DNA from: Thalassomonas viridans
GTDB taxonomy: Bacteria > Pseudomonadota > Gammaproteobacteria > Enterobacterales > Alteromonadaceae
NCBI RefSeq assembly: GCF_000948985.2
Contig: NZ_CP059733.1
Coordinates: forward strand, 6,386,001-6,450,000
DNA: 64,000 bases
Direction: 5' to 3'
How positions within the stretch are numbered: position 1 is the first letter of the stretch; every line of letters begins with the position of its first letter. The position numbers and the translations under genes were made by a program. This document shows positions 20,877-58,400 of the stretch, in pieces. The notes below the pieces were generated by a model. The model saw nothing but the letters and a program-made list of their open reading frames with translations, made no database searches and was not told the origin of the DNA.

Positions 20877-22190
20877 ATGGCAAATAACAGTTTATTAATC
20901 GTTGAAACTCCTTCAACGACATGTGTTGACAGTGAATACCTGGCCAGACAGCAATACGACATCCACAGGTGCCAGAGTGCCGCATCGGCCTTTACCACGG
21001 CATCCGAGGTTTCACCTGCCGTGGTGCTGGTATCGGCTTTTCTGCCGGATATGCAACTGACGGACTTTGTCCGGGCCTTCTCCCGTAGTCATAAAAGTAC
21101 CGTGATCCTGGTGATGGTGGAAAGCCAGCAATGCCAGCTTGCCGCCGACGCCATAGGCGTAGGGGCGTCGGATTATCTGCTGAAACCTTTCACCGACCAG
21201 CAGCTGATATCCGCCATAGACCAGGCCATCAGTTTACACAACCCGGTGGCGGATCTCGTGGTCAGCTCCGCCGCCAGCCGCCAGGTGATCCAGCTGGCGC
21301 TGCGGGCGGCGCAAACCAATGCCACGGTACTGATCAGCGGCGAGTCCGGCACAGGTAAAGAACGCCTGGCGCAATATCTCCACGATAACTCTCCCCGTTC
21401 ATCCGGGCCTTTTGTCGCCTTTAACTGCGCCGCCATCCCGGAAACCATGATCGAGTCCATGCTGTTCGGCCACAGCAAAGGCGCCTATACCGGCGCGGTT
21501 GCCAGCCAGGCGGGTAAGTTCGAACTGGCCAACGGCGGCACCCTGATGCTGGACGAAATCTCGGAAATGCCGCTACCCCTGCAGGCCAAACTGCTGCGGG
21601 TACTGCAGGAGCGGGAAGTGGAGCGCCTGGGCAGCAATCAAAAAATCAAACTGGATATCCGCATTATCGCCGCCACCAATAAAAACCTGTCGCAGCAGGT
21701 GGCACAGGGGCTGTTCCGGGAAGATCTCTATTACCGCCTCGATGTGCTCCCCCTGAGCTGGCCGGCCCTGAGGGAGCGCCGCGACGATATTATCCCGCTG
21801 ACGGAATACTTTATCGGCAAATACGCGCCTTCTCCCGGTTACTCCATTTGCAAAAGCGCCAAGCTGGCGCTGCAGAGCCACCACTGGCCCGGCAATGTCA
21901 GGGAGCTGGAAAATGTGATCCAGAGAGCCTTGATCATGGCCCGGGGCATGGAACTCCAGGTAGCGGACCTTATGCTGCCGACCCCTAATATTCCCCAGGC
22001 AAGCCCGCAGGTGGAACATAACGCACAAGGATTAGAGTCAAGTAAAAAACATGCCGAATACCAATACGTATTAGAGACGCTGAAACAATTCAGCGGTCAC
22101 AAAACCAAAACAGCAGCAGCATTAGGTGTCACACCAAGGGCATTACGCTACAAGATGGCGGCAATGCGGGAACAGGGCATAGAGGTTTAA
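20877..22190 (+). CDS. lafK: LafK-type sigma-54 activator of lateral flagellar genes
   Basis: 437 residues: a receiver-like domain (1-120), AAA+ sigma-54 domain (130-365) and Fis-type helix-turn-helix (395-437). The receiver has Ser53 where the phosphoacceptor Asp is expected ([11 protein letters not shown]) and lacks the N-terminal acidic pair, although the conserved Lys in LLKPF remains, so it should not be phosphorylated in the normal way. Walker A is GESGTGKE (155-162); the sigma-54 loop is GAYTGA. Its position between motY and fliE matches V. parahaemolyticus lafK, the master activator of lateral class II genes. It starts 3 bases after motY. Confidence 0.88.
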
Positions 22191-22200
22191 GGGGAACAAG

Positions 22201-22530
22201 ATGAAAGTAGAGAATAACTTACACTCGCTGGACTTACTCAACAAAATGGAACTGATGCAAGTCAGGGCCAGCAAAGACATAGCTTTATCAGCGGACAATG
22301 CCGCCAATCAGGTATCTTTCGGCCAGACCATGAAAACCATGATCCAGGACGTCAACCAGCAGCAGCTGGCGGCCGGTAAGCTGATGACGGCGGTAGACGC
22401 CGGACGCAGCGACGACCTGGTGGGCGCCATGGTCATGAGCCAGAAAGCCGGACTGAGCTTTTCCGTGCTGATGCAGGTCAGAAACAAACTGATGTCGGGT
22501 CTGGACGACATCATGCGCATGCCTTTATAA
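22201..22530 (+). CDS. fliE: Flagellar MS-ring/rod junction protein FliE (lateral set)
   Basis: 109 residues. Its C-terminal half is typical: GQTMKTMIQDVNQQQLAAGK, then SFSVLMQVRNKLMSGLDDIMRMPL. FliE joins the FliF ring to the rod. RBS AAGGGGAA lies just upstream; the gene is 10 bases after lafK. Confidence 0.93.
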   Translation: MKVENNLHSLDLLNKMELMQVRASKDIALSADNAANQVSFGQTMKTMIQDVNQQQLAAGKLMTAVDAGRSDDLVGAMVMSQKAGLSFSVLMQVRNKLMSGLDDIMRMPL

Positions 22531-41832: not shown

Positions 41833-42204
41833 ATGGCAATAAATTTTGATAAAGCCTTGGGCATTCATCCTTATGCCTTACAGGCCAGGGTGCAGCGCAG
41901 CGAGATCCTCGCCAGCAATTTAGCCAATGTTGACACCCCGGGTTATCTGGCCCGGGATTATGACTTCAAAGCCGCCATGGCGGATGTCGAGTCACAGTTC
42001 AACAACTCGGGCTCCGGTTTTGTACCGCAATTGTCCATGGAAGCCCAGTACCGGGTGCCCTACCAGCCGGCGCTGGACGGCAATACCGCGGAAATGGGCG
42101 TGGAACAAAGCAAATTTAACAACAATGCCATGGATTTTCAGAGCAGCCTGACTTTCCTGAACATGAAAATACAGGGCCTGCAAAAAGTAATAGACGGACG
42201 CTAA
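41833..42204 (+). CDS. flgB: Flagellar proximal rod protein FlgB (lateral set)
   Basis: 123 residues with the rod-protein signature (RVQRSEILASNLANVDTPGYLARDYDF) and C-terminal helix (NNNAMDFQSSLTFLNMKIQGLQKVIDG). First gene of the flgBCDEFGHIJKL operon. Confidence 0.95.
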   Translation: MAINFDKALGIHPYALQARVQRSEILASNLANVDTPGYLARDYDFKAAMADVESQFNNSGSGFVPQLSMEAQYRVPYQPALDGNTAEMGVEQSKFNNNAMDFQSSLTFLNMKIQGLQKVIDGR

Positions 42205-42206
42205 TT

Positions 42207-42629
42207 ATGTCATTCAACAACATCTATGATATTGCCGGCAGCGCCATGCGCAGCCAGACACTGAGACTCAATACCGTGGCTTCCAACCTGGCCAACGCCG
42301 ATGCCGCCGCCGGCAGCGAACAGGAAGCCTATCGCGCCTTGAAGCCGGTATTCTCTTCTGTTTATCAAACCAGCCAGGAAGAAATGCAGATCACCGGCGC
42401 CAGCGTACAGGTGCTTGGGGTTACCCAGTCGCAGCAGGCAGTCGAGCGCCGCTACGAGCCGGAAAACAGCCTGGCGGATGAAGAAGGTTATGTCTTTTAT
42501 TCCAACGTCAACGCCGTGGAAGAAATGGCGGATATGATGTCGGCTTCGCGCAGTTTCGAAGGTTCGGTGGAAGTCATGCGCCGGGTCAACAGTATGCAGC
42601 AAAGTTTATTGCGCTTAGGAAAAGGATAA
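42207..42629 (+). CDS. flgC: Flagellar proximal rod protein FlgC (lateral set)
   Basis: 140 residues: IAGSAMRSQTLRLNTVASNLANADAA at the N-terminus and EEMADMMSASRSFEGSVEVM at the C-terminus, where lateral FlgC keeps the usual Val-Asn-Ala-Val-Glu-Glu-Met start. Two bases after flgB. Confidence 0.95.
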   Translation: MSFNNIYDIAGSAMRSQTLRLNTVASNLANADAAAGSEQEAYRALKPVFSSVYQTSQEEMQITGASVQVLGVTQSQQAVERRYEPENSLADEEGYVFYSNVNAVEEMADMMSASRSFEGSVEVMRRVNSMQQSLLRLGKG

Positions 42630-42633
42630 TAAG

Positions 42634-43296
42634 ATGTCAGCTATTACTAATACCGGTTCCGGCGTCAACACCGCCAGCCAGGGCACCAATACAACAACCA
42701 ACTCCGCTTTTGGTTTAAAGAATGAATTCCTGGAAATGATGGTTGCCCAGATCCAAAACCAGGATCCGCTCAATCCCCTAGACGGCACCGAATATGTCAG
42801 CCAGCTGGCGGAATTTTCCATGGTGGAAGGCATAGAATACCTGCGCAGCGGCCAGACGGAACAGGCAGATCTAATGTACACCCAGCAAGTGCTGCAAAGC
42901 ACCTCCCTTATCGGCAAAGACGTGCTGGTGCCTGCCTCCTCGCTTGCGGCCCAGCAGGGGGAAAAGCCCCGGGGTGTGATCAAACTCGACGGCAGCGCCG
43001 ACAAGGTAGTGCTGAAAGTCAAAGACTTAAACGGCCAGGTGGTGCAGGAGCATAACTGGCAGTATGCCAGCCAGGGGGAGATCGCCTTCGAACTGGATGA
43101 ACTCGACCAGAACTCCTATGTCTTTGAAGTCGAAGTACATAACGGGGAAAACATCAGCAGCCAGACACCCTGGCTACAGCGCAACGTGGAAAAAGTCAGC
43201 CTGCCGTCCAGCGGCGGCGATATCCAGCTTGCACTTACCGGAATGGGGAGCGTTTCTCTGTTCTCCGTTTCAGAATTTAGCCAGAATAACAGTTAA
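42634..43296 (+). CDS. flgD: Hook-capping scaffold protein FlgD (lateral set)
   Basis: 220 residues. The N-terminal cap region is typical (KNEFLEMMVAQIQNQDPLNPLDGTEYVSQLAEFS), followed by the FlgD Ig/tudor-like domain (about 105-205; VLKVKDLNGQVVQEHNWQ). It caps the growing hook and is not in the final structure. Confidence 0.95.
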   Translation: MSAITNTGSGVNTASQGTNTTTNSAFGLKNEFLEMMVAQIQNQDPLNPLDGTEYVSQLAEFSMVEGIEYLRSGQTEQADLMYTQQVLQSTSLIGKDVLVPASSLAAQQGEKPRGVIKLDGSADKVVLKVKDLNGQVVQEHNWQYASQGEIAFELDELDQNSYVFEVEVHNGENISSQTPWLQRNVEKVSLPSSGGDIQLALTGMGSVSLFSVSEFSQNNS

Positions 43297-43305
43297 GGAA
43301 CAGCC

Positions 43306-44502
43306 ATGTCTTTTAGTATAGGTTTATCAGGACTTCGCGCCACCAACGAGCAACTGGATGTCATTTCGCAAAACATTGCCAACGTCGATACTTCCGGCTT
43401 TAAATCCGGCCGGGCGGAATTCTCCGCCATCTACAGCGGCGGCTTACCCGGCGGCGTTGAAGTCGCGGATGTTTCCAGCAACTTCGACCGCGACGGTTCA
43501 GTGATCAATACCGGCCGTTCCATGGACATGGCCATCAGCGGCCGCGGTTTCTTCGTATTAAACAACAACGGCGAAACCGCCTACACCCGCGCCGGTACCT
43601 TCAACCGCGACGCCAGCAACTATATCGTCAGCAACAGCGGCGCCAGGTTACAGGGTTACCCGGTAGACAGCACAGGCGCGCTGCTTGATGGTGTGGTTAG
43701 CGACCTGCAGGTGGCAACCGGCACCTTACAGGCCAGCGAGTCCAGCGTAGTCAACTTTGCCGCCAACTTAAAAGCCGACTCCGCCATACCGGCGACCGCC
43801 TGGAACCCCGCCAGCATACAACCGGACATGTACAACTATTCCCAGTCCAGCACGGTTTACGATACTTTAGGTACAGAGCATGTACTGACCCAATACTTTG
43901 TCAAAACCGGTACCAATAGCTGGGACGCCCATTACTTTATTGACGGCGCTGCCGCAGGCACCACGCCAACCCAGGCATTAACCTTCGATGCCACCGGCAA
44001 CCTGTTGACCCCGGCGGCTGCAGTAAACCTGACCCATAATGTTACTAACGGCGCCAACAACCTTGCTATTGGTCTTTCCCTGACGGATATGACCCAGAAC
44101 AGCGCCGATTTCAGCTTAAGTCGCAACGAAACTGACGGCTACGGCGCCGGTGAACTGAAAAATATCCGGGTGGACGACGACGGTTCCGTTTACGGCGTTT
44201 ACACCAACGGCCAGGACATGTTGCAGGGTAAGGTTATCCTGGCGGATTTTGCCAACCCCGACGGCCTGAGCAAAGGCGACAACACCACCTGGACCCAGAC
44301 CTTTTCTTCCGGCGCGCCTATGCTGGGGGTTCCTGACAGCGGCACTTTGGGCAGCCTGAGCTCCGGCGCCTATGAAGGCTCCAACGTCGACCTGACCGGC
44401 GAGCTGGTTAACCTGATGACCGCCCAACGCAACTACCAGGCCAACGCCAAGACCATAAGTGCCGCCGAACAGATGACGCAAGTCCTGTTCAGCTCATTTT
44501 AA
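43306..44502 (+). CDS. flgE: Flagellar hook protein FlgE (lateral set)
   Basis: 398 residues. N-terminal D0 (SIGLSGLRATNEQLDVISQNIANVDTSGFKS), variable middle with the FlgE D2 region, and C-terminal VNLMTAQRNYQANAKTISAAEQ. Its last 24 codons (44431-44502) have a diverged in-frame copy downstream at 44551-44625. Confidence 0.95.
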   Translation: MSFSIGLSGLRATNEQLDVISQNIANVDTSGFKSGRAEFSAIYSGGLPGGVEVADVSSNFDRDGSVINTGRSMDMAISGRGFFVLNNNGETAYTRAGTFNRDASNYIVSNSGARLQGYPVDSTGALLDGVVSDLQVATGTLQASESSVVNFAANLKADSAIPATAWNPASIQPDMYNYSQSSTVYDTLGTEHVLTQYFVKTGTNSWDAHYFIDGAAAGTTPTQALTFDATGNLLTPAAAVNLTHNVTNGANNLAIGLSLTDMTQNSADFSLSRNETDGYGAGELKNIRVDDDGSVYGVYTNGQDMLQGKVILADFANPDGLSKGDNTTWTQTFSSGAPMLGVPDSGTLGSLSSGAYEGSNVDLTGELVNLMTAQRNYQANAKTISAAEQMTQVLFSSF

Positions 44503-44532
44503 ATAACAAATAAATAGAGCAGGACACGCAAG

Positions 44533-44625
44533 ATGAACAGACGGGACTTAAACAGAGCCAACGCGCTAATACCCAGTTCAGCATCAGCGCAACAGATGAC
44601 GCAAGTCCTGTTCAGCTCGTTTTAA
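44533..44625 (+). repeat. Echo of the flgE 3' end: 30-codon ORF ending like FlgE
   Basis: This short ORF starts at ATG 44533 (AGGA 12 bases upstream). From AAC at 44551 it aligns with the FlgE C-terminus: NRANALIPSSASAQ versus NYQANAKTISAAE, then the identical QMTQVLFSSF and stop. A 28-base stretch is identical apart from one later A/G. It lies between flgE and flgF. A functional small protein, a fragment of an older flgE allele, or a recombination scar are all possible. Confidence 0.85.
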
Positions 44626-44651
44626 CTGATCACATAGACCGGGACTGACTC

Positions 44652-45380
44652 ATGGAACTCTTATATACCGCCCTTTCCGGAGCAAAACAGACGCAAACCG
44701 CCATGGCGATACGCGCCAACAACCTGGCCAATGTCAATACCACCGGCTTCCGTGCCGATCTGGAGCGCACCGCCGCCTACCAGATCGAAGGTTATGGTTT
44801 TAATACCCGGTATATGAGCCAGTCGGAGCAGGCGGGCACCAACTTTGCCAGCGGCCGTTTGCAGCAAACCGGCCGCACTCTGGATGTCGCCATCCAGGGG
44901 GACGGCTACCTGGCGGTACAGGCGCCGTCCGGCCAGGAAGCCTATACCCGCGCCGGCAATATCATGGTGGACGGCGCAGGCCAGGCCTTTATCAACGGCA
45001 ACCCGGTGTTGTCCGACGGCGGCCAGCTGATCCTGCCGGAATACCAGCAGATCACTATAGGTAAAGACGGCACCGTCAGCGTGATTCCCCAGGGGGGCGG
45101 CGCACAAATCGAAGTGGGCCAGATCACTTTGGTCAAGCCGGAAGATGCCGCCATGACCAAAGGCCTGGACGGCCTGCTTTACCTGAAAAGCGGCGCCCAG
45201 GCGCCGGTCAGCGATGAAGTGGAGCTGGTGTCCGGTTTCCTGGAAAGCTCAAACGTCAACGCCGTTACCGAGCTGGTGTCGTCCATGGCGGTCAACCGCC
45301 AGTTCGAATTGCAAATCAAGATGATGAAAACCGCAGACACATTAGCGCAAAGCGGCAATAAACTCATCAGCGGCTCATAA
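44652..45380 (+). CDS. flgF: Flagellar proximal rod protein FlgF (lateral set)
   Basis: 242 residues. LYTALSGAKQTQTAMAIRANNLANVNTTGFRADLE at the N-terminus and SSMAVNRQFELQIKMMKTAD at the C-terminus. Its last 24 codons (45309-45380) are echoed directly downstream at 45383-45466. Confidence 0.95.
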   Translation: MELLYTALSGAKQTQTAMAIRANNLANVNTTGFRADLERTAAYQIEGYGFNTRYMSQSEQAGTNFASGRLQQTGRTLDVAIQGDGYLAVQAPSGQEAYTRAGNIMVDGAGQAFINGNPVLSDGGQLILPEYQQITIGKDGTVSVIPQGGGAQIEVGQITLVKPEDAAMTKGLDGLLYLKSGAQAPVSDEVELVSGFLESSNVNAVTELVSSMAVNRQFELQIKMMKTADTLAQSGNKLISGS

Positions 45381-45382
45381 CA

Positions 45383-45466
45383 TTGAAAATCAAGATGATG
45401 AAAACGGCGCTAAATCACAAACAAATCTTAGCGCAAAGCGGCAACAAGCTTATCAGCGGCTCTTAA
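45383..45466 (+). repeat. Echo of the flgF 3' end before flgG
   Basis: In frame from TTG 45383 or ATG 45395 it reads LKIKMMKTALNHKQI followed by LAQSGNKLISGS and stop, versus LQIKMMKTADT and the same 12 residues in FlgF. Four extra codons lie in the middle. Third-position differences (AAC/AAT, CTT/CTC, TCT/TCA) show that it is not a fresh copy. Confidence 0.88.
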
Positions 45467-45489
45467 GCAGCACACAGTAAGGAATTATT

Positions 45490-46275
45490 ATGAACTCGTC
45501 ATTATGGGTCAGTAAAACAGGTTTGGCGGCACAAGATGCCAAGATGACCTCTATCTCCAACAACCTGGCCAACGTCAATACCACAGGTTTTAAACGCGAC
45601 CGGGTCGCCTTCTCGGATCTGTTTTACGACATCCAGCGCCAACCCGGCGCCCAGGCGGATCAGCAAAACGAGATCCCCACCGGCATCCAGGTGGGCAACG
45701 GTGTTCGCATCATGGGCACGCAAAAAGTATTTACTTCCGGCACCTTCGCCAACACAGGCCAGGAACTGGATCTGGCCATAGTCGGCAAAGGCTTTTTCCA
45801 GGTGGAGCAGCTCAGCGGCGAGCTGGCCTACAGCCGCAACGGCCAGTTTAACCTGAATTCCGACGGCGAAATCGTCAACGGCGACGGCCTGCCGCTGGTG
45901 CCCAATATCCAGATCCCGGCAAATACCGTCAGCATCACCGTCGGCACCGATGGCATCGTCAGCGCCCTGCAGGCAGGGGAAGTCAACCCGCAGGAAGTCG
46001 GCCAGATCACTTTAGTGAATTTCGCCAACCCCGCCGGCCTGGAAGCCATAGGCAGCAATCTCTATGTTGCCACCGGCTCTACCGGCGAGCCGATTGAAGG
46101 GGTGGCCGGCGAAGACTCCCTCGGCCAGCTGAAGCAATATACCTTGGAAGGCTCCAATGTCAGCGTGGTAGAAGAAATGGTGGACATGATCTCCACCCAG
46201 CGCGCCTATGAAATGAACGCCAAGGTGGTATCCGCCTCGGATCAGATGCTGAAATTTATCAGCCAGGCGTTATAG
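45490..46275 (+). CDS. flgG: Flagellar distal rod protein FlgG (lateral set)
   Basis: 261 residues, standard length. SLWVSKTGLAAQDAKMTSISNNLANVNTTGFKRDR at the N-terminus; VEEMVDMISTQRAYEMNAKVVSASDQMLKFISQ at the C-terminus. Contains the FlgG-specific PGAQADQQNEIPTGIQVGNG segment that sets distal-rod structure. Confidence 0.96.
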   Translation: MNSSLWVSKTGLAAQDAKMTSISNNLANVNTTGFKRDRVAFSDLFYDIQRQPGAQADQQNEIPTGIQVGNGVRIMGTQKVFTSGTFANTGQELDLAIVGKGFFQVEQLSGELAYSRNGQFNLNSDGEIVNGDGLPLVPNIQIPANTVSITVGTDGIVSALQAGEVNPQEVGQITLVNFANPAGLEAIGSNLYVATGSTGEPIEGVAGEDSLGQLKQYTLEGSNVSVVEEMVDMISTQRAYEMNAKVVSASDQMLKFISQAL

Positions 46276-46287
46276 AAGGAGCTTTTG

Positions 46288-46968
46288 ATGCTGGCTAAAC
46301 GGCTCACTATCGTCCTGGGAACCCTGCTGCTGACCGCCTGTGCAAGCAGCTATCATCCGGCCCAGCCGCAACCGGGGGAAAGGCAGTGGCAACCTACGGT
46401 CACCCGGGCGCAGGCCCAGGCAGCACCTGAGGCAAAAGACGGCAGTTTATTGCAGAACGCCCGCCTGCTGAACATGTTCCAGGACAGGCGCGCCTACGGT
46501 GTCGGCGATATCCTGACCGTGATGTTAGACGAAGAAACCCAGTCCAGCAAAAGAGCCGATACCGATATCGGCAAAACCAGCGATACTAGCGGCACCTACA
46601 GCGCGGTTTTCCCCAACACCAATGAAAGCGGCAGTTTCGGCTTCGGCAGCAACCGCAGCTTCAACGGCAGCTCCAGCGCCAGCCAGCAAAACACCCTGAC
46701 CGGCGCCATTACCGTCACAGTTTCCGAAGTCTTGGATACCGGCGCGCTGCGCATTAACGGCGAAAAATGGATCAAGCTCAACCAGGGGGATGAATACATC
46801 CGCCTGACCGGCCTGATCCGGGTGGAAGATGTCGACCGCGCCAACCGCATCAGCTCGCAGCGCATAGCCGATGCCCGCATCACCTATGCCGGACGCGGCG
46901 CCCTGGCGGAAGCCAACCAGCAGGGCTGGCTGTCGCGTTTCTTCAACAGCGGCTGGTTCCCTTTCTAG
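46288..46968 (+). CDS. flgH: Flagellar L-ring lipoprotein FlgH (lateral set)
   Basis: 226 residues from the ATG at 46288 (AAGGAG upstream); a TTG one codon earlier is possible. Lipobox LLTAC with Cys18 marks an outer-membrane lipoprotein. Family regions: LFQDRRAYGVGDILTVMLDE and the C-terminal VRVEDVDRANRISSQRIADARITYAGRGAL-type stretch (here IRVEDVDRAN). Confidence 0.96.
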   Translation: MLAKRLTIVLGTLLLTACASSYHPAQPQPGERQWQPTVTRAQAQAAPEAKDGSLLQNARLLNMFQDRRAYGVGDILTVMLDEETQSSKRADTDIGKTSDTSGTYSAVFPNTNESGSFGFGSNRSFNGSSSASQQNTLTGAITVTVSEVLDTGALRINGEKWIKLNQGDEYIRLTGLIRVEDVDRANRISSQRIADARITYAGRGALAEANQQGWLSRFFNSGWFPF

Positions 46969-46977
46969 GCCCGGCAA

Positions 46978-48111
46978 ATGAGTAATAATATGAAAAAAAT
47001 ATGCGCCTTTCTCCTGGTTTTCTCCGGCCTGTTGCTGCTTTCGCAGGTCAAAATCGTGCATGCCAAACCGGCGCGCATGCTGCTGGATATCACCGACATC
47101 CAGGGACTGAGAAAAAACCAGCTGGTGGGTTACGGCCTGGTGGTGGGTCTGGACGGCACCGGCGACAAAAACCAGGTGAAATTCACCAGCCAGTCCATGG
47201 TCAACATGTTGCAACAGTTCGGCGTCACCCTGGACGGCCGCACCGACCCTAAACTGAAAAACGTTGCCGCGGTCACCGTCACCGCCGACATCATGCCCCA
47301 GGCGGGCAAAGGCCAGCTGGTCAATGTCACCGTTTCTTCCATCGGCGATGCCAAAAGCCTGCGCGGCGGCACCCTGTTGCTGACCCCGCTAAAAGGCATA
47401 GACGGCCAGATCTATGCCACCGCCCAGGGCAACCTGGTGGTGGGCGGCATCAAGGCGCAGGGCACCTCGGGCTCGTCCATTACCGTCAACACACCCACCA
47501 CGGGCACGATTCCCAACGGCGCGGTGATCGAGCGGGAAATCCAGTCGGACTTTATCGAACAAAAAGACGTGATCTTAAATTTAAAGCGGCCGAATTTTAA
47601 AACCGCCCGTAATATCGAAGTGGCCATCAATGAGCTGTTCGGCCCTGATGTCGCCCGCGCCCAGGGACAGCACAGGGTGGCGGTTGCCGCGCCGACGGAT
47701 GCCAGGCAGAGGGTGACCTTTATGTCCATGCTCGAAGAAATCGAAGTCGAGCTGGGGCGCACCAAGCAAAGGGTAGTATTCAACAGTCGCACCGGCACCG
47801 TAGTGATGGGAGCCAATGTCAAGGTCAGGAAAGCCGCCGTCAGCCACGGCAACTTGACCGTGACCATAACCGAAAGCAGCAATGTCAGCCAGCCCAACGC
47901 CTTCGGCCAGGGCAATACGGTGACGACGCCGGAGTCCTCCATCTATATCGAGAAAGGGGAAAACCCTATGTTCGTCTGGCCGGAAGGCACCTCGCTCGAT
48001 GTTATCGTCAAAGCCATCAACAGCTTAGGCGCAGCGCCGGACGACCTTATGTCCATTTTACAATCCCTGCATGAAGCGGGTTCACTGGAAGCAGAGCTAG
48101 TGGTGATTTAA
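46978..48111 (+). CDS. flgI: Flagellar P-ring protein FlgI (lateral set)
   Basis: 377 residues with a signal peptide (first about 30 residues, ending VHAKP). Family motifs: [28 protein letters not shown] and the C-terminal [23 protein letters not shown]. The stop overlaps an ATG (TAATG) that opens a 30-codon echo of this gene's own 3' end. Confidence 0.96.
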
Positions 48112-48203
48112 TGGCAAAAGCACCGGATCACTTAATGTTCCCATATTATCAACAATCCCAGCACCAAACGGGTTCACTGGAAGCAGAATTGGTAGTTATT
48201 TAA
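48111..48203 (+). repeat. Echo of the flgI 3' end, coupled on both sides by TAATG
   Basis: Starting on the A of the flgI stop, this 30-codon ORF reads [20 protein letters not shown] and then [10 protein letters not shown]; FlgI ends [15 protein letters not shown] and the same [10 protein letters not shown]. Its TAA overlaps the flgJ ATG. The shared end uses different codons (GAATTGGTAGTT versus GAGCTAGTGGTG), so protein sequence is conserved more than DNA. It fills the entire flgI-flgJ gap. Confidence 0.9.
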
Positions 48204-48667
48204 TGACTAAAATAACCGACGCCGGGCTCTACCTGGATCCCAAGGCAATCAACAGTATCAAGGAAAACACCAACAAGGCCGAAGGCCTGGAGCAGGCGGC
48301 GGATCAGTTCGAAACCCTGTTCCTGCAGATGGTGTTAAAAAGCATGCGCGACGCCAGCGACGCCCTCAGCGATGAAGACACCCTGGTGTCGAGCAAGCAG
48401 GAGCGCATGTACCGGGACATGTACGACGGCCAGCTGGCCACGGCCATGATCAACAAAGGCTCCCTCGGCATTGCCGATGCCATGGTGAAACAGCTGTCTT
48501 CTCAGGATAACGCAGGGGAAATAAACCCGGTTGCCGCGGGCAAAGAAAATAAAAACGACAATGCATTAAAGTCCGGCACAAATACGGTCGCTAATCAGGA
48601 AGTAAGCAATGATGCGTTTAGACAACCGCTTATCACTATGAACAAGATTAATAAATCCGGAGCCTAA
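48203..48667 (+). CDS. flgJ: Rod-binding protein FlgJ without muramidase domain (lateral set)
   Basis: 154 residues. Only the N-terminal rod-cap domain is present (EQAADQFETLFLQMVLKSMRDASDAL; YDGQLATAMINKGSLGIADAMVKQL); the C-terminal glucosaminidase/muramidase domain of polar FlgJ (about 300 residues in all) is absent. Another enzyme must open the peptidoglycan. The ATG overlaps the stop of the flgI echo. Confidence 0.93.
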   Translation: MTKITDAGLYLDPKAINSIKENTNKAEGLEQAADQFETLFLQMVLKSMRDASDALSDEDTLVSSKQERMYRDMYDGQLATAMINKGSLGIADAMVKQLSSQDNAGEINPVAAGKENKNDNALKSGTNTVANQEVSNDAFRQPLITMNKINKSGA

Positions 48668-48673
48668 TAAGCT

Positions 48674-50005
48674 ATGAGTATGTTGAGTAATGGTTTATCA
48701 GGGTTAACCGCCGCACAAATCGCCTTAAATGTGGTCAGTAACAATATTGCCAACAGCAATGTCGCCGGTTACACCCGCCAGCAAACGGTAAACAGTTCGC
48801 TGATCAGCAACAGCAATAATTCCCTGTCCAGCGGATCCGGGGTGGAAGTGTCCGCCATCAACCGCATTACCGACGATTACCTCAACAACAACTTATGGCG
48901 CAGCAACTCCAGCTACGGCTTTAACCAGGCCTACAGCGACTATCTCGGCATCACCGAACAGCTGCTGGCCAACGAAAACCTCAGCCTGGCGGTCGGCATG
49001 GACGAGGTATTCAACGCCTTTAACTCCGCCTCCGCCGAGCCCAGCAGTATCGCGCCGCGGCAACTGATCATTTCTTCCGCCGAAGCCTTGACGCAAAAAT
49101 TCAATTCCCTGGCCGCCAACCTGGATATCCAGCGGGTGCAAATAGAAGAACAGGCGGACGGCATGCTGGAAATGGCCAACAGTTTGTTCAGCGAAGTCGC
49201 CACCCTGAACCGGGAAATCGTTGACGGCACCGCCCAGGGAGCCAATGTTTCCGCGCTGCTGGACCAGAGGGACGAAACCGTCAACACCCTGTCGAAGCTG
49301 ATGGATGTCGAAGTGGCGCGTATGGACGACGGTTCCTATACCCTGTCCATGACCGGCGGCCAGCCGCTGGTCCTGGGTTCCAGCTACGCCAGCCTGACCC
49401 GGGTCGGCAACGACTACCAGGTTAACCTGGCGGGACAGCCCTTTTCCTTCAGCGGCGATATCGGCGGCGAGTTAGGAGGCATTTTATCCTACGAAACCAA
49501 TATTCTCGACACCACGGAAGCCAGCTTAAACCAGCTGGCACAGGACCTGGCGGACGATATCAATAACCAGCTGGCCCTGGGCCAGGATATCAATGCCGTC
49601 CCCGGCCCGGGGGCGCGGCTGTTCGACTACAACCCGCTGGATCCCGCCGGCAGCATCAGCATTACCGCGGGTTTCCAGCCGGAAGATCTCGCCCTGGGGG
49701 CTACGGGCACAGGCCCGGGGGATAACAGCAACTTAAGCCAGATCATCGACCTGAAAGACAGGCATTACGATACCTACAACTCCCTGGTGGGCACTTTGGC
49801 CATCCAGAGCGGCCAGGCGGGAGCCGAAGCCCAGGCCAGCAAAAGTATCGCCGACGACGCCCTGGCCCAGCGGGACAGCGTCAGCGCCGTCAACCTGGAC
49901 GAAGAGGCGATGTCGCTGATCCAGTACCAGCAGTCCTACCAGGCCAACGCCAAAGTGGTCAGCGCCTCGCAGCAGCTGTTCAATACCCTGCTGTCGATGT
50001 TTTAG
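48674..50005 (+). CDS. flgK: Hook-filament junction protein FlgK (lateral set)
   Basis: 443 residues. SMLSNGLSGLTAAQIALNVVSNNIANSNVAGYTRQ at the N-terminus and NLDEEAMSLIQYQQSYQANAKVVSASQQLFNTLLSMF at the C-terminus. Shorter than many FlgK (about 550) because the middle domain is reduced. Confidence 0.95.
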   Translation: MSMLSNGLSGLTAAQIALNVVSNNIANSNVAGYTRQQTVNSSLISNSNNSLSSGSGVEVSAINRITDDYLNNNLWRSNSSYGFNQAYSDYLGITEQLLANENLSLAVGMDEVFNAFNSASAEPSSIAPRQLIISSAEALTQKFNSLAANLDIQRVQIEEQADGMLEMANSLFSEVATLNREIVDGTAQGANVSALLDQRDETVNTLSKLMDVEVARMDDGSYTLSMTGGQPLVLGSSYASLTRVGNDYQVNLAGQPFSFSGDIGGELGGILSYETNILDTTEASLNQLAQDLADDINNQLALGQDINAVPGPGARLFDYNPLDPAGSISITAGFQPEDLALGATGTGPGDNSNLSQIIDLKDRHYDTYNSLVGTLAIQSGQAGAEAQASKSIADDALAQRDSVSAVNLDEEAMSLIQYQQSYQANAKVVSASQQLFNTLLSMF

Positions 50006-50016
50006 GAGCGGCGATA

Positions 50017-50064
50017 ATGAAACCGTTTTTTATTTTTTTACTGTTAGTTAAAGCAAGCGTTTAA
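50017..50064 (+). CDS. Possible 15-codon hydrophobic leader ORF before flgL
   Basis: MKPFFIFLLLVKASV with GGAG nine bases before the ATG, filling most of the flgK-flgL gap. It shows no resemblance to the FlgK C-terminus. It may be translated for coupling or be chance. Confidence 0.3.
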   Translation: MKPFFIFLLLVKASV

Positions 50065-50074
50065 GGGAAACATC

Positions 50075-50974
50075 ATGAGAGTCAGCACAGGTCAGTTACA
50101 ACAGCTTATGATGAACGGCTTCCAGCGGGGAGCGGTGGACTTTTCCAACATCAGCCAGCAGATGGCCACGGGCAAGAAAATCCTCAAGCCTTCGGACGAT
50201 GCCCTGGGCACAGTACAGCTGATGGCACTGAAAAAAGAACAGGCCAATATCGAGCAGTTCAACAGCAATATCAGCAATGCCCGCCGCCAGCTGGGCAGCG
50301 CCGAAACCTATATCTCCAGCATGTCGGACACCCTGCTAAAACTCAGGGACCTGACCCTGGAAGCCGGTAACGGCGCCTATGGCTTGTCGGAGCGCCAGGC
50401 ACTGGCGGCAGAAATGCAGTCGCTGAAAGACGCCCTGATGGACACCGCCAATGCCAAGGGCAGCAACGGCAAATACCTGTTTTCCGGCTCGGAAGTGGAT
50501 ACGCCGCCGATTTCGGGGCCCGTGGCCGGCAACTATACCTATGACGGCGACAACCTGCCGCGCCAGATCAGCGTCTCCTCCGGGGTCCAGGTTACCTCCA
50601 ACTTCGATGTCGAAGATGTTTTCTTTAATGGCGGCAGCGATTTCTTCCGGGAGCTGGACGATTTTATCAATACCCTGGACACCCAGACCGGCAGCGTCGC
50701 CAACGACGTCACTAACATGCTCAACAGCCTGGATACCAGCATTACCGGCAACCTGAAACTGCTTACCGATGTCGGCGCCCGCCTCAACAGCCTGGACAAG
50801 GTACAGCGCACCAATGACGATATCGAACTCTACGGCCAGACCCTGCAGCTGGAGCTGGAATCCCTGGACTACGGCCAGGCGTCGATGCAGTTGACCCAGG
50901 CGGAGCTGGCGCTGCAGGCGACCCAGCAGGTATATATCAAGGTCAACCAGCTTAACCTGTTCGATCAGCTCTGA
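50075..50974 (+). CDS. flgL: Hook-filament junction protein FlgL (lateral set)
   Basis: 299 residues. N-terminal flagellin-like helix (VSTGQLQQLMMNGFQRGAVDFSNISQQMATGKKILKPSDD) and a C-terminal helix (YGQASMQLTQAELALQATQQVYIKVNQLNLFDQL). The TGA overlaps the next gene's ATG. Confidence 0.95.
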   Translation: MRVSTGQLQQLMMNGFQRGAVDFSNISQQMATGKKILKPSDDALGTVQLMALKKEQANIEQFNSNISNARRQLGSAETYISSMSDTLLKLRDLTLEAGNGAYGLSERQALAAEMQSLKDALMDTANAKGSNGKYLFSGSEVDTPPISGPVAGNYTYDGDNLPRQISVSSGVQVTSNFDVEDVFFNGGSDFFRELDDFINTLDTQTGSVANDVTNMLNSLDTSITGNLKLLTDVGARLNSLDKVQRTNDDIELYGQTLQLELESLDYGQASMQLTQAELALQATQQVYIKVNQLNLFDQL

Positions 50975-51990: not shown

Positions 51991-52434
51991 AAATCTTCCC
52001 TCATAACTCTGCTGATAACCCCGGCTGACAACTTAAGCTCAGGTTAATCTTTGTCCTTGCCTGAGCCTTTCCCTTTAACCCGGACAAAAAAATTCATTTA
52101 TTTTTTCCGGACCGTCCTGCTGCACTTCCCCCTGAATTTTTTCTTTCACCGGCATCCGGGTTTGCCGTCAGCCCATTGACAGCGCTATTTTCGTATAAAA
52201 AAAATTATTTTTATACGAAAAACTTCTTAGCAAAAACACTAAAAAACACACTATTAACTGTAATTTTACGTAATACACAACTAATTAAATTACTGTATAC
52301 TCCCGCCCCGACATATTTGTACCGCCAATGGTCATACCAATTCCGCGGACAAAATGAACAGTTACCCCCACAGTTAACGCCATGGAAAAGCAGTTAACTA
52401 ACTGATTATATTGTTGTTTGGAGTACGTAGTACT
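51991..52434. other. Intergenic region with a 14-bp AT-rich hairpin
   Basis: 444 bases without a gene. TTTTCGTATAAAAA (52188-52201) and TTTTTATACGAAAA (52208-52221) form a perfect inverted repeat with a 6-base spacer: a possible operator or weak bidirectional terminator of the flg operon. Downstream sequence is AT-rich with TGTATACT near 52295 as a possible -10 for the giant gene. Confidence 0.55.
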
Positions 52435-55400
52435 ATGTTTCAAAAATTAGGTCTGGCGATCTGGCTACTCACCTGCGTGGGTCTGGCCCGGGCTGCTGAC
52501 GTGCAAATTTCGCAGCTGGTGGACAATACCGACCCCGCCATCCGCGGCGCCGATATCACCTATAGGGTATCTGTGCTCAACGGCGATAACGACACCGCCA
52601 CCAACGTTAAACTTGAGTTTCCCATTCCCGCCAATACCAGCTTTGCTTCGGTAAACGACGGCCGCTGCAGCCATGCCGCCAACCTGGTGACCTGTAACCT
52701 GGGCAGCATGACGGGCGACGGCCTGGGCGGGCCGATCACAGACATAGACTTTACCATTACCACAGGGGTTTTAACCGGCAGCACGGTCAACGTCAGCGCG
52801 ACCATCACCGCCGACGGCGATACCGACACCACGGCCGTCAACAGCAACAATAACTACGAAGATCAGAACACCACCATGGACGATGGCGCCGATCTGTCAC
52901 TGGCCATCAGCGACAGCCCGGACCCGGCGATTGCCGGCGGCACTTTGACCTATACCCTGACCGCCAGCAATGCCGGCCCCAACGATGCCGGCGCCGCCTT
53001 CAACAGCACCGGGGTTACTCTGGTCAATACCCTGCCGGGCGGCGTTACTTTCACTTCCGCTTCCGGCACCGGCTGGAGCTGCGGCAACAGCGGCCAGACG
53101 GTTACCTGCAACCGCGAACTGATCACCTCCGGCGCCTCGGCGCCGGACATTACCCTGGTCACGCAAATCACAGGACAAATCGCCGGCACCATCACCGACG
53201 CCGCCACCGTCAGCTCCATTACCGCAGATCCGGTCAGCAGCAACAATACCCAGACACAGGACACCAGCATCAACCAGGGGACCGACCTGACCCTGAGCAA
53301 AAGCGTGGCTGCCCCGGTCGTCGGCGGCAGCACCACCAGCTTTACCCTGCAGCCGAGAAACCTCGGCCCCTACGATGCCGATAACCTGGTGGTTACCGAC
53401 ACCCTGCCGTCGGGATTCACCTATATTTCCGCCGGCGGCAGCGGCTGGAGCTGCGCCGAAGCGGCGCAAACCGTCACCTGTAGCCGCGCCAGCTATAGTG
53501 TCGGCGCCACCGACGATATCAGCATACAAACCAATGTGCCCGCTTCCGGCACTAACATCACCAATAGCGCCAGCATCAGCACCACCACCTCGGAGCAGGA
53601 CACAAGCAACAACAGCGACAGCGTGACCTTTTCCGTGGTGCCCGACGGCGCCGACTTGTCCCTGAACAAAAGCAAAACCCCGGATCCCGTGGCCTTAGGC
53701 TCGGACATGACCAGCGTACTCACGGTAAGCAATGCCGGGCCGCAGGCCACCAGCGGCACCCTGACGGTCACGGATGTCCTGGCCGCGGGCGAGACCTATA
53801 AGTCCTACACCGGCAGCAACTGGACCTGTAACCATGCCGGCGGCAGTCCGGGAGGCACAGTGACCTGTACCTATAGCGCCAACCTGGCCGCGGATGCCAC
53901 CGCATCCACCCTGAGGATAGTCACCACAGCCACCACGGCCGGCGCCCTGGGCAATACCGCCTCGGTGACGGATGCCGGCGGCCAGGCCGACGGCAATAGT
54001 AGCAACGACAGCGCCGGCGCTTCGGTTACCGCCACCACAAGTATCGCCGATCTGGCCATCAGCAAAGTCGTTTCCGACAACAACCTGAGTGCGGCGGAAA
54101 ATTCCACCACTTACACCCTGGTGATCACCAACAACGGCCCCGATAACATTACCGATCCCGGCCCCGGCAGCCAGGCCGTCTATATCCAGGATGACCTGCC
54201 CGGCTATGTCAGCTCGGTCACAGGTGCCTCCCCGGATACCACAGGGGTCACGGTCGCCGCCAGTGTCACCTCCATCGGCGGCGCAGCCTTTAGTTGTTCC
54301 GGCACCAGCAGCGTGCGCTGCAGCCTGGATGACGGCGAAACCTTTAACAGCGGCGACAGCGTCACCATCAGCATAGGCGTCGACCGCCCCATGGCGAACG
54401 GCAGCTTTACCAATACCGCCACCGTGAGCTCGGAAGTGCTGGGGGATGACGACAGCAGCAATAACAGCGACAGCGCCAATATCGACATCACGCCGCTGGC
54501 AGATGTGGAAATGCTCAGCCCGAGCATTCCCGTCAACCCCGCCAAGGCAGGCACCGAAGCCACTATCGTATTACAGTTCAGGAATAACGGTCCTTCCACC
54601 GCCGATAATGTTAACCTGGTCCATACCTTCTCGCCGCCGGCGGGGCGTACTTATACTTTGGTTTCCGCCACCCCGAGCGAAGGCAGCTGCGGCGCTTTGG
54701 CCGGCAACGTGCTGACCTGCAACGGCATCACACTGGACAGGGACGAAAACCAGAGCATTATCCTGATCGTCCAGCCCGGCTGGGACGGCGCCAATACCGC
54801 CTGGACCCTGGCAGGCAATACAGTGATCAGCACCACCACGGACGAGCAGGATAACGGCATCAACAACATGGCTGCCAATCTCGACGTCAGCCTGGCGGAA
54901 ACCGATTTGCTGATCAACAATACCGATGTCACAGATCCCGTCGGCTGGTCGGCAACGCCTGGGGCTTTCCCCGCCACTTTGGACAACATCATCGTCTACC
55001 AGGTGGATGTCAGCAACCGCGGCCCTTCCCTGGCCACGGGACTGCAATTTACCTATGACATGACCCCGAAAGCCGGTAAAAGCGTGACTTTCCTGTGCGA
55101 CAGCACCAGCGACACTAGCTGTAGCGCAGGCACCTCTTTATGCGACAACACCGGCGTTTCCGTCACCGGCGGCAGTAGCTTAAGCCTGAGCTGTAATGTC
55201 CCGGACAACAGCGGCAATGCCCTGAACGACCGGGAGCTGGAAGCCAATACCACCACCAGCCGCTACCTGTTTTTCAGCGCCGACAGCGCCCCGGACTCTA
55301 CCGGCGATACCCACAATACTGTAGCTACCGTCTCCTCCAACGAAGACGATACCCTGCCGGGCAACGACAGCGAAGCCGAATCCACTTCCGTGCGGGTCAA

Positions 55401-58400
55401 GGTGGATCTGGCGGTCACGAAAACCGCCTCTTCGTCAACGGTCAATATCAACGAGCCTTTTGAATTTAATATTCTGGTAAGCAGCAACGGACCCGGCGAC
55501 AGCGCCCAGTCGACCCTGCTCGATACCCTGCCGGCCGGCATGGAGCTGACCGCCACGCCGGTAACCGCCCAGGGAAGCTGTAGCGGCAGCGCCGGCAGCA
55601 CAAGTTTCAGCTGCGATCTCGGCACTATCAACAAGGATGACAGCGTCGCGGTAACCGTGCCGGTGCGTATCACCAGTTACCTGGCGGGTAACATCACCAA
55701 TACCGCAGAGGTTGAAAGCTTCGGCGTGGATATCGACGGCAGCAACGACAGCGACAGCGATACCGTGACCATGGTCAAATCTTCTGTCGCAGGTACTGTT
55801 TTCAACGATCTTAACGATGACGGCCTGCAGGACCTGGCCAGCGGCGAAAGCGGCATAGAGTCGGTCACCATAACCCTGACCGGCACAGACGATTACGGCA
55901 ATGCCGTGAGCCTGACCGAAACCAATGCCGGCAGCAGCGATTACCTGTTCGACAATTTATCGCCGGGCAGCTATACCCTGACCCAAACCCAGCCGGGCGG
56001 TTTTGATGACGGCCTGGAAAATGCGGGCGGCACTATTATCGGCAACAGCCGCTCAAGCGATACCATAACCGTCACCCTTGCCAGCAATAGCCAGTTAACG
56101 GACCATGATTTTGCCGAACTCGGCCAGGCCAGCCTGGCGGGCAGCGTCTGGCACGACAGCGATAACGACGGCATCAGGGACGCCGGTGAAACCCTGGGCA
56201 TATCGGATGTCACCCTGACCCTGACCGGCACCGACAGTACCGGCGCCGCCGTCAACCTGACCACAAGCTCAGACAACGACGGGAATTATAGCTTTGCCAA
56301 TCTGCGTCCCGGCACCTACGCCATCGGCGAAACCCAGCCCAGCACCTGGGGGGACGGCCTGGACAGCGTCGGCAGCGCCGGCGGCAACCTGGCCAATGAC
56401 AACCTGAGTAATATAGTACTCGGCGCCGGTATCGGCGGTACGGATTATAACTTTGGCGAACAGGGCTCAAGCCTGAGCGGCACCGTCTACCGGGATGGCA
56501 ACGATAACGGCATTATCGATGCCGGAGAAGCCGGCATTGCCGACGTCACCATCACCCTGACCGGTACCGACGATCTCGGCAACAACATCAGCGAAACCCG
56601 GCAAACCGACAGTGACGGCAATTACAGCTTCCACCCGTTGCCAGCCTCGGACGGTGCCGGTTACCTGATAAAAGAAACCCAGCCCGCCAATATCTTTGAC
56701 GGTAAAGACACCCTGGGCTCTTTAGGGGGAGTACTGGCCGACGATCAGTTTACCCTGGTTCTCGGCGCCAATGTCACCGGCAGCGGCTACAACTTCGGCG
56801 AAGGCGCAAACTTCAAATCTTCTTTATCCGGCCGGGTATATATAGATGCCGATGCAGACGGTTTATACGGTAACAATGAAACCGGCATTGCTGATGTCGA
56901 ACTAACCCTGTCCGGCACCAGCAACTCCGGTATCGGCGTAATTTTGACCACTACCACAGGAAGCAATGGCCAATACAGCTTCAACAACCTGGTTGCCAGT
57001 AATGACCAGGGCTATAGCATTAGCCAAAAGCAGCCGAGACTTTACCTGGACGGCCAGGAAAGCCGAAGCGGCCGGGTAATCGACGGCAGCCGGGGCACGG
57101 ACAAGATCACCGCCATAGTGCTGAGGGATAACCAGAACAAAACCGGATATGATTTTGGCGAACTCCAGGATGCCGGTATTTCGGGTTATGTGTACCTCGA
57201 CAGCAACCGCAACGGCATAAAAGATAACGGGGAAACCGGCATAGACAAGGTAACCCTGACCCTGACAGGCGAAGATATTTACGGTGTTGATGTCGAGCTG
57301 CACACCACTACCAACAGCAACGGCATGTATCAGTTTACCGGTTTACTGCCCTCGGACGCATCCGGCTACACAATCGCAGAGACCCAACCGCAGCACTACA
57401 GCGACGGCCTGGAAAGCCACGAAGGCCAGGTACTGGCAGACAGCGATCAAAGCGATACTATCACCGGCCTGGTACTGGCGGCAGATGCCAGTATCAGCCC
57501 CCTTAATTTCGGTGAAATTCATAATGCTTCCCTGGCAGGCCAGGTTTTTGCCGATACCGACAATAACGGCCTGAAATCAGCGCAGGAGCCGGGGATCCCC
57601 GAGGTCGGCTTAGTACTTTCCGGATTAGATCTCTGGGGCAACCAGATCAGGCAGGAAACCACCACGGACGAAAACGGCAACTACCGTTTCAGCCATCTAC
57701 CCCCCTCCGGCGACAACGGCTACCGCCTGAGCGAAAGCCAGCCGCAGCATTATATCGACGGCCTGGAAAGCATAGCGGATCAAGTCATCGCCGGCAGCAA
57801 CACCGGCGACAGCATAGGCAATATTCCCCTGGCCGCCGACCAGGCCTTGAGTGGCTACCGCTTTGCCGAGCTGTACGCGGGAGAGATCAACGGTGAAGTC
57901 TTTATCGATACCGACGACAACGGCCTGCGGCGCAAAGGCGCCCTTGGCTCGGGCGAGATAGGTGAATCCGGCATCCCGGGTGTCGGCATCACCCTGAGCG
58001 GCACGGATCACCTGGGCAACAGCGTCAACTTAACCACAATCACGGACGAAAACGGTTATTACAGCTTTGAAAACCTGGCGCCGAGCGATGACAACGGCTA
58101 CCGCCTCACGGAAAACCAGCCGGAAGGTTACAGCGACAGCCTGGAGTCCATTAACGGCGCCCTGGTTGACGGCTCGCAATTCTCGGATGTGATCGGCCTG
58201 CCGCCGCTGGCGCCGGGACAGATACAGCCGCAAAATAATTTCGCCGAACTATCCGGCTTAACCTTGAGCGGCCTGGTCTGGGTGGACGACAATGACAACG
58301 GCGAAATCGACAGCGACGAACACCTGCGCATTGCCGGGGTCGAAATCACAGTCACGGGCAACAGCGATAGCGGCGCAGCCATCAGCCATACGGTCACCAC

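Follow-up and report, generated by a model that had tools for sequence, protein, structure and literature searches.

The gap between the flagellar genes flgI and flgJ of Thalassomonas viridans holds a 30-codon mini-frame that starts like flgJ, ends like flgI and overlaps both genes. Our best explanation for it, to which we assign a probability of roughly 0.55, is that the flgI-flgJ junction was duplicated in tandem and that the frame left between the two copies would act as a reinitiation bridge to flgJ. The repeat, the frame, the overlaps, their distribution among related genomes and the presence of like architecture elsewhere are directly established; we infer that the frame is translated, in which case it probably relays ribosomes from gene to gene rather than yielding a useful peptide. 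All positions refer to the window, the whole 64,000-nt stretch of DNA that was analysed, which comes from a genome of 7.9 Mb and in which the operon flgB-flgL spans 41833 to 50974 (Table 1); gene A is the gene whose tail is echoed and gene B the gene that follows. Pfam backs the labels FlgE, FlgF, FlgG, FlgI and FlgJ (rod-binding domain), and NCBIfam matched FlgF and FlgI above its cut-off. Downstream of the operon lies a 2802-aa open frame with a TTG start (52411-60819).

Table 1. Genes, parent tails, echoes and mini-frames in the window.
Feature	Position	Strand	Remarks
Junction of sigma-54 response regulator (20877-22190) and fliE (22201-22530)	22188..22203	+	no echo in window
flgE	43306..44502	+	Pfam; parent tail 44468-44502
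flgE echo mini-frame, 30 codons	44533..44625	+	echo proper 44591-44625
flgF	44652..45380	+	Pfam, NCBIfam; parent tail 45308-45380
flgF echo frame, TTG start, 27 codons	45383..45466	+	repeats 45382-45408, 45428-45466
flgG, gene B of flgF echo	45490..46275	+	Pfam
flgI (P-ring protein), gene A	46978..48111	+	PF02119
Parent tail of flgI	48060-48111	+	
flgI echo mini-frame, 30 codons, ATG; flgJ-like start, then flgI tail	48111..48203	+	
flgI-tail echo inside mini-frame	48152..48203	+	ungapped score 29.5
flgJ (rod-binding domain), gene B	48203..48667	+	PF10135; start overlaps echo stop (TAATG)

An earlier note on this DNA, made from the sequence alone, had described the mini-frame as an in-frame echo of the flgI tail with TAATG overlaps at both ends, and the anatomy of the junction bears this out: TAATG forms the joint between flgI and the mini-frame as well as that between the mini-frame and flgJ. 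The stretch 48060-48119 recurs at 48152-48211 with 82% identity, as two adjacent copies. The flgI unit holds the stop of A together with the start of B, with an ATG at flgJ's own spacing (-1 nt), and the head of the mini-frame matches that of flgJ at 8 of 12 nt here and at 10 of 12 nt in two other species. The echo stop in turn lies -1 nt from the flgJ start, the overlap expected of a coupled uORF. With a flgJ-like start at this spacing, the tail of an older flgI allele, which the same note had considered as a source, is not needed for flgI. Its identical decapeptide is present at the end of both parent and echo, with codons that differ at only 4 of the 10 positions rather than throughout. An internal difference of +6 nt in the echo counts against a bridge formed by junction duplication. 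We rejected a dispersed repeat, the 242-nt flgI-flgJ junction having one match in its own genome, and Rfam returned nothing at gathering scores between 40000 and 53000. FlgJ itself is 154 aa long, and its Pfam match is to the rod-binding domain only.

To place the echo among other gene ends, the last 120 nt of each gene were compared with the next 300 nt by ungapped scoring, with ORFs of at least 100 aa taken as gene calls, so that some of the scanned 'genes' are antisense ORFs. The tails of flgI, flgE and flgF scored 29.5, 32.5 and 29.0, and the next best among the 53 gene tails of the window reached 14.0, far from the stop. In 20 further stretches of the same genome (318 tails), one tail scored 16 and the rest at most 13.5; the match at 16 is by appearance a tRNA-like repeat whose end does not fall at the stop. 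End-anchored echoes were found at flgI, flgE and flgF only, among 371 sampled gene tails of this genome, and these three echoes are not due to chance.

The flgE and flgF echoes had also been reported by the earlier note, and both were recovered. The flgE tail is repeated with 97% identity (34 of 35 nt), and the flgF tail at 45342-45380 with 90%, the flgF echo being 90-93% identical. Neither touches the gene that follows, the next start lying 26 nt (flgE) or 23 nt (flgF) away, and neither has a start codon at B's exact spacing. The spacings within each arrangement are unequal (30 versus 26 nt for flgE, 2 versus 23 nt for flgF); drift could explain the former, and the flgF unit probably ended just past the stop. 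The bridge reading is weaker for flgE and flgF because their echoes miss the next start and lack B's spacing.

We then compared four genomes of the genus, G000 (this one), G001, G002 and G003. The flgI echo is present in G000, G002 and G003, and in G001 flgI and flgJ are joined directly at TAATG; the flgE echo is present in G000, G001 and G003 and absent from G002, and the flgF echo occurs in G000 alone of the four. In distances computed from eight flg genes joined end to end, G001 and G002 form the closest pair (0.071) and G000 is the most distant (0.108-0.116). Taken with the distribution, these operon-wide distances are most simply explained if the flgI echo and the flgE echo are older than the genus and each disappeared once. 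Trees of single genes conflict: that of flgI pairs G000 with G002 and that of flgG pairs G000 with G003. Set against the operon-wide distances, these trees of G000-G003 (L032-L034 and the window) suggest recombination within the operon. Six outgroup operons (L035-L040) contained no tail echo scoring at least 13, save one of 13.0 at 41 nt from the stop. The earlier note held that relatives lacking the echo, together with the signature of a simple recent duplication, would reduce it to a neutral scar; the echo is indeed absent from G001, and no recent-duplication signature was seen. A recent simple duplication was rejected as a full account of the flgI echo, which is common to three species and about 20% diverged.

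We next asked what is conserved in the echo. Across the three species that carry it, differences fall 22/15/21 at codon positions 1, 2 and 3 (three non-independent pairs pooled), and pN/pS values of 0.43, 0.65 and 0.50 lie within the range of neutral simulations (medians 0.66-0.85, 5% points 0.33-0.40). The real flgI tail shows 24 pairwise differences, all at third positions, with pN of 0. The echo diverges evenly from end to end (0.24, 0.19 and 0.21), and divergence falls to 0.056 in the 60 nt that begin at the second TAATG. Its open frame and its overlaps are retained. The decapeptide is exact in this genome only, the other carriers reading GSLKAKLVVI and GSLAAELDVI. The residues of the echo thus appear close to free, in what looks like approximately neutral drift, and the apparent conservation of its peptide would largely reflect purifying selection on the flgI copy itself. 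Since the echo drifts nearly neutrally while the real tail changes silently, the selection on the short peptide that the earlier note had envisaged finds no support, and residues under purifying selection, by which a conserved microprotein would be recognised, were not found in the three species.

A selected micropeptide that imitates its parent's C terminus therefore seems to us very improbable. The decapeptide identity in this genome speaks for it, as does a silent-only stretch in another echo (gene X, below); against it stand the free variation of the flgI echo residues between species, the unrelated nature of the parents (P-ring, hook, rod, helicase and regulator) and the codon-position differences of 2/4/1 in an echo found between a regulator gene and fliE. 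Another rival is a neutral scar, in which a junction-spanning duplication does no harm, as neither gene is damaged, while the echo decays and the open frame is simply inherited from flgI and flgJ. In keeping with this, echo divergence of 0.19-0.24 is near the third-position divergence of the real tail (0.267), pN/pS fits neutrality, and substitutions alone would leave the flgI frame intact in all three species with a probability of about 0.2. For that reason, the flgI echo taken singly is no proof of selection on the frame, and the case rests on the joint pattern. Single species without echoes also favour a scar, and the ability of G001 to dispense with the flgI echo, and of G002 to dispense with that of flgE, counts against a bridge. 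The retention of two echoes in three of four species, with the joints beside gene B kept, points the other way. So does the length of the mini-frames, which differs by multiples of 3 (flgI 93, 93 and 93 nt; flgE 93, 87 and 96 nt): in flgE the frame has varied by multiples of 3 only. On balance we regard a neutral scar as unlikely, though well worth weighing.

The search was widened to 20 further operons and 30 flgE loci, one of them this genome's own (390 tails, a total that overlapping loci enter twice), and to the flagellar-cluster surroundings of the genus (206 tails). An echo of the same architecture lies at the regulator-fliE junction of G002 and G003, with a mini-frame start MKVESSLHPLNLLNKM against MKVENNLHSLDLLNKM in fliE; the polar flgK-flgL junction of G001 has an echo whose frame is lost. 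The recurrence noted in the operon also extends to another genus, g63, which we take to be Aeromonas (the labels alr, nth and fabG are likewise presumptive). There an flgK echo precedes flgL in 5 of 18 flgK loci read and is absent from 13, a nineteenth locus (L175) standing outside this count. Two units are present in each of G278 and G305 and one in each of G089, G199 and G314. The unit is 67 nt long, and its 18-codon frame is a head of flgL fused to a tail of flgK, for example MRISTSQIQLFNSILNMF, so that the start of the mini-frame echoes the head of B (MRISTSQI.. versus MRISTNQI.. in flgL). In G278 the two units differ by one base, and in G305 the tail of the first unit is identical to that of its own flgK. 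A phenomenon confined to lateral flagella was rejected, echoes having been met at other junctions.

The frequency of strong tail echoes differs among genomes. In sampled stretches, 11 of 333 tails of G089 score at least 16, six of them ending exactly at the stop, as do 11 of 315 in G162, all within 12 nt of the stop; the corresponding counts are 1 of 318 in G003 and 0 of 65 in G423. In G089, a gene end occurs in three tandem copies with a spacing of about 165 nt (L202:3802-4422). Beyond these genera, coverage consisted of flagellar-operon and flank loci: a set of 31 named loci and four polar flgI loci (558 tails), Thalassomonas included, gave a sole match of at least 16, the Thalassomonas flgI echo.

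If a unit spans a junction, a start codon may be expected behind A's stop at the distance that separates A from B, and this expectation was examined, with frame ignored, in a manual selection of 24 echo families from the scans, each represented by a single row. Omitted were both L187 rows, L190, L202 4433 and L206 6529 of G089, the antisense rows of L132, L148 and L151, and the tRNA-like repeat. A following gene B, by the rule used, exists in 18 families, and 8 of these 18 have an ATG at B's exact distance; the other 10 have no start codon there. The matched spacings are -1 (flgI), 10 (regulator-fliE), -4 (L237), -17 (L194), -4 (gene X), -4 (L215), 10 (g63 flgK-flgL) and 8 nt (polar flgK-flgL). 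For g63 flgK the row gives a distance of 77 nt to flgL, as a second unit stands between, the single joint being 10 nt. In seven of the eight the start is in the echo frame, which ends at the echo stop (P = 0.0026 against an expected one third); the eighth, polar flgK of G001, is out of frame. An in-frame mini-frame near A's stop occurs in 10 of 11 families with B at most 31 nt away and in 4 of 13 others (Fisher 0.0045), the families and the 31-nt limit having been fixed after the data were seen and two families lying just past it, at 36 and 40 nt; with dnaB taken as adjacent, as the automatic rule has it, the counts are 10 of 12 and 4 of 12 (P = 0.036). The in-frame fusion of seven of eight families argues against a neutral scar, and starts at B's exact spacing fit local duplication.

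Gene X, the g63 gene at L208 7692-8555, offers a second view of how the two copies diverge. It matched no Pfam or NCBIfam family, and the msh-cluster label that we had presumed for it is unsupported. Thirty loci were fetched (L277-L306) and 26 junctions read, of which 7 have an echo with a mini-frame. Five of the seven echoes beside B end as the gene does in echo-free species (GEDA, GRSE, GRSEG) and a sixth nearly so (GRNE), and in those species A's own end is now GDDQ or GGER; in the seventh case, G162, the two ends are GAES and GAER. At the regulator-fliE junction, similarly, the echo keeps GAGGTTTAAGGGGAA as in the echo-free window, and the parent reads GAAGTTTAAGGGAAA. As far as sequence can suggest, the copy beside B in these two cases would retain the job of a leader and the copy on A that of coding. 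The N-terminal halves of the gene X mini-frames drift freely and the C-terminal halves show silent changes only in the three species compared: over the last 17 codons there are 17 silent differences and no replacement when three non-independent pairs are added up. Either recombination with echo-free relatives or a selected peptide could account for this. The C-terminal part strains the bridge reading, being more constrained than a bridge requires. The gene X frames are open in 5 of 7 sequences tested, with a chance probability of about 0.06, which weighs against a neutral scar.

These tail types also bear on whether the echoes are remnants of diverged alleles, the end of a foreign homologous gene having been added beside the native tail so that the copies differed from birth. 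Homology-facilitated illegitimate recombination is a known process, most differences between parent and echo are silent (6 of 7 in flgF outside its rewritten middle), and the gene X echo bears the tail type of echo-free species while its parent bears another. Among the 19 gene X tails read that lack an echo, however, not one ends in GDDQ or GGER (a single one ends in GGRE), and local duplication is fitted not only by the starts at B's spacing but also by the near-identical units of G278 and the G305 unit whose tail is identical to its parent. We consider such an origin improbable.

A further g63 echo behaves differently. Ahead of the gene that follows dnaB, 29 of 30 loci (L223:14915-16315 and L247-L276) have an echo of the dnaB C-terminal end, which is invariant at 32 of 33 nt. 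The search pattern itself fixed these positions, yet all but one of the 30 loci fitted it; within dnaB proper, third positions diverge by 0.29. The spacers between dnaB and the echo vary and by eye look able to fold into hairpins, there is no common frame among the loci, and some g63 genomes carry additional tandem dnaB tails. On this evidence the dnaB echo must be conserved as DNA or RNA, and it may be an attachment site for an integrative element. Not all echoes are bridges, since this one is invariant without a conserved frame; the tail echo is one anatomy with more than one fate.

Together, these comparisons lead us to favour a junction duplication followed by ribosome relay. A unit of about 86-92 bp, comprising the flgI tail, the TAATG joint and the first flgJ codons, would have undergone a tandem duplication, which is most simply placed in the ancestor of the genus. 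The two genes would remain whole, the first copy ending flgI and the second starting flgJ, with a chimeric mini-frame of flgJ head and flgI tail left between them. Ribosomes that finish flgI would reinitiate at TAATG, translate 30 codons, terminate at the second TAATG and there start on flgJ. A mini-frame out of register would mostly terminate at some distance from the start of B and isolate B, whereas an in-frame one would end exactly at B's joint, and selection would afterwards hold frame, length and joints, and the residues hardly at all. The in-frame excess, the kept joints and the drifting residues would all follow from such reinitiation.

More tentatively, and with somewhat less than even confidence, we propose that junction duplication is a general and overlooked source of bacterial intergenic mini-frames, in which A's copy keeps the protein end, B's copy keeps the leader and the frame between serves as a ribosome relay. 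If so, a sequence that both encodes A's C terminus and starts B could be split into two freely evolving copies, which would show how overlapping coding and initiation signals separate and would account for a class of short ORFs between genes that are liable to be taken for microproteins. It also carries a warning, as silent-only differences between tail and echo are no evidence of a selected peptide. The copy number of 0, 1 or 2 among related species makes the proposal directly testable. Junction duplication as a source of mini-frames was not described in the literature titles and abstract openings consulted.

Three known systems invite comparison. Small tandem duplications arise by slippage or microhomology, and the echoes resemble them in being direct repeats of variable unit number that are missing in sister species; unlike them, the cases here extend across a stop/start junction, for the most part in frame. 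Coupling uORFs are a second likeness: in one study, reinitiation required genes that overlap or nearly touch, the final 15 nt of the gene upstream were enough for it in two pairs, and little of it was left across gaps of about 20-38 nt (PMC10666635). Of the eight echoes with matched spacing, seven, at -1, -4, 8 and 10 nt, lie near the uORF spacings of -1, -4 and about +10 nt given there, L194 at -17 being the exception; the difference is that the coupling frame here is a duplicated junction, between two structural genes. The closest known case is that of the coupling ORFs in MIRUs, described as apparently mobile short repeats of many mycobacteria whose ORF is coupled to the following gene (-4 nt) and leaves expression largely intact (PMC12548453). 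As in a MIRU, the ORF overlaps its neighbours by stop and start, through TAATG at both ends, the overlap alone being what is seen here; unlike a MIRU, each echo derives from the genes beside it, and the genome contains no further match to the flgI-flgJ junction.
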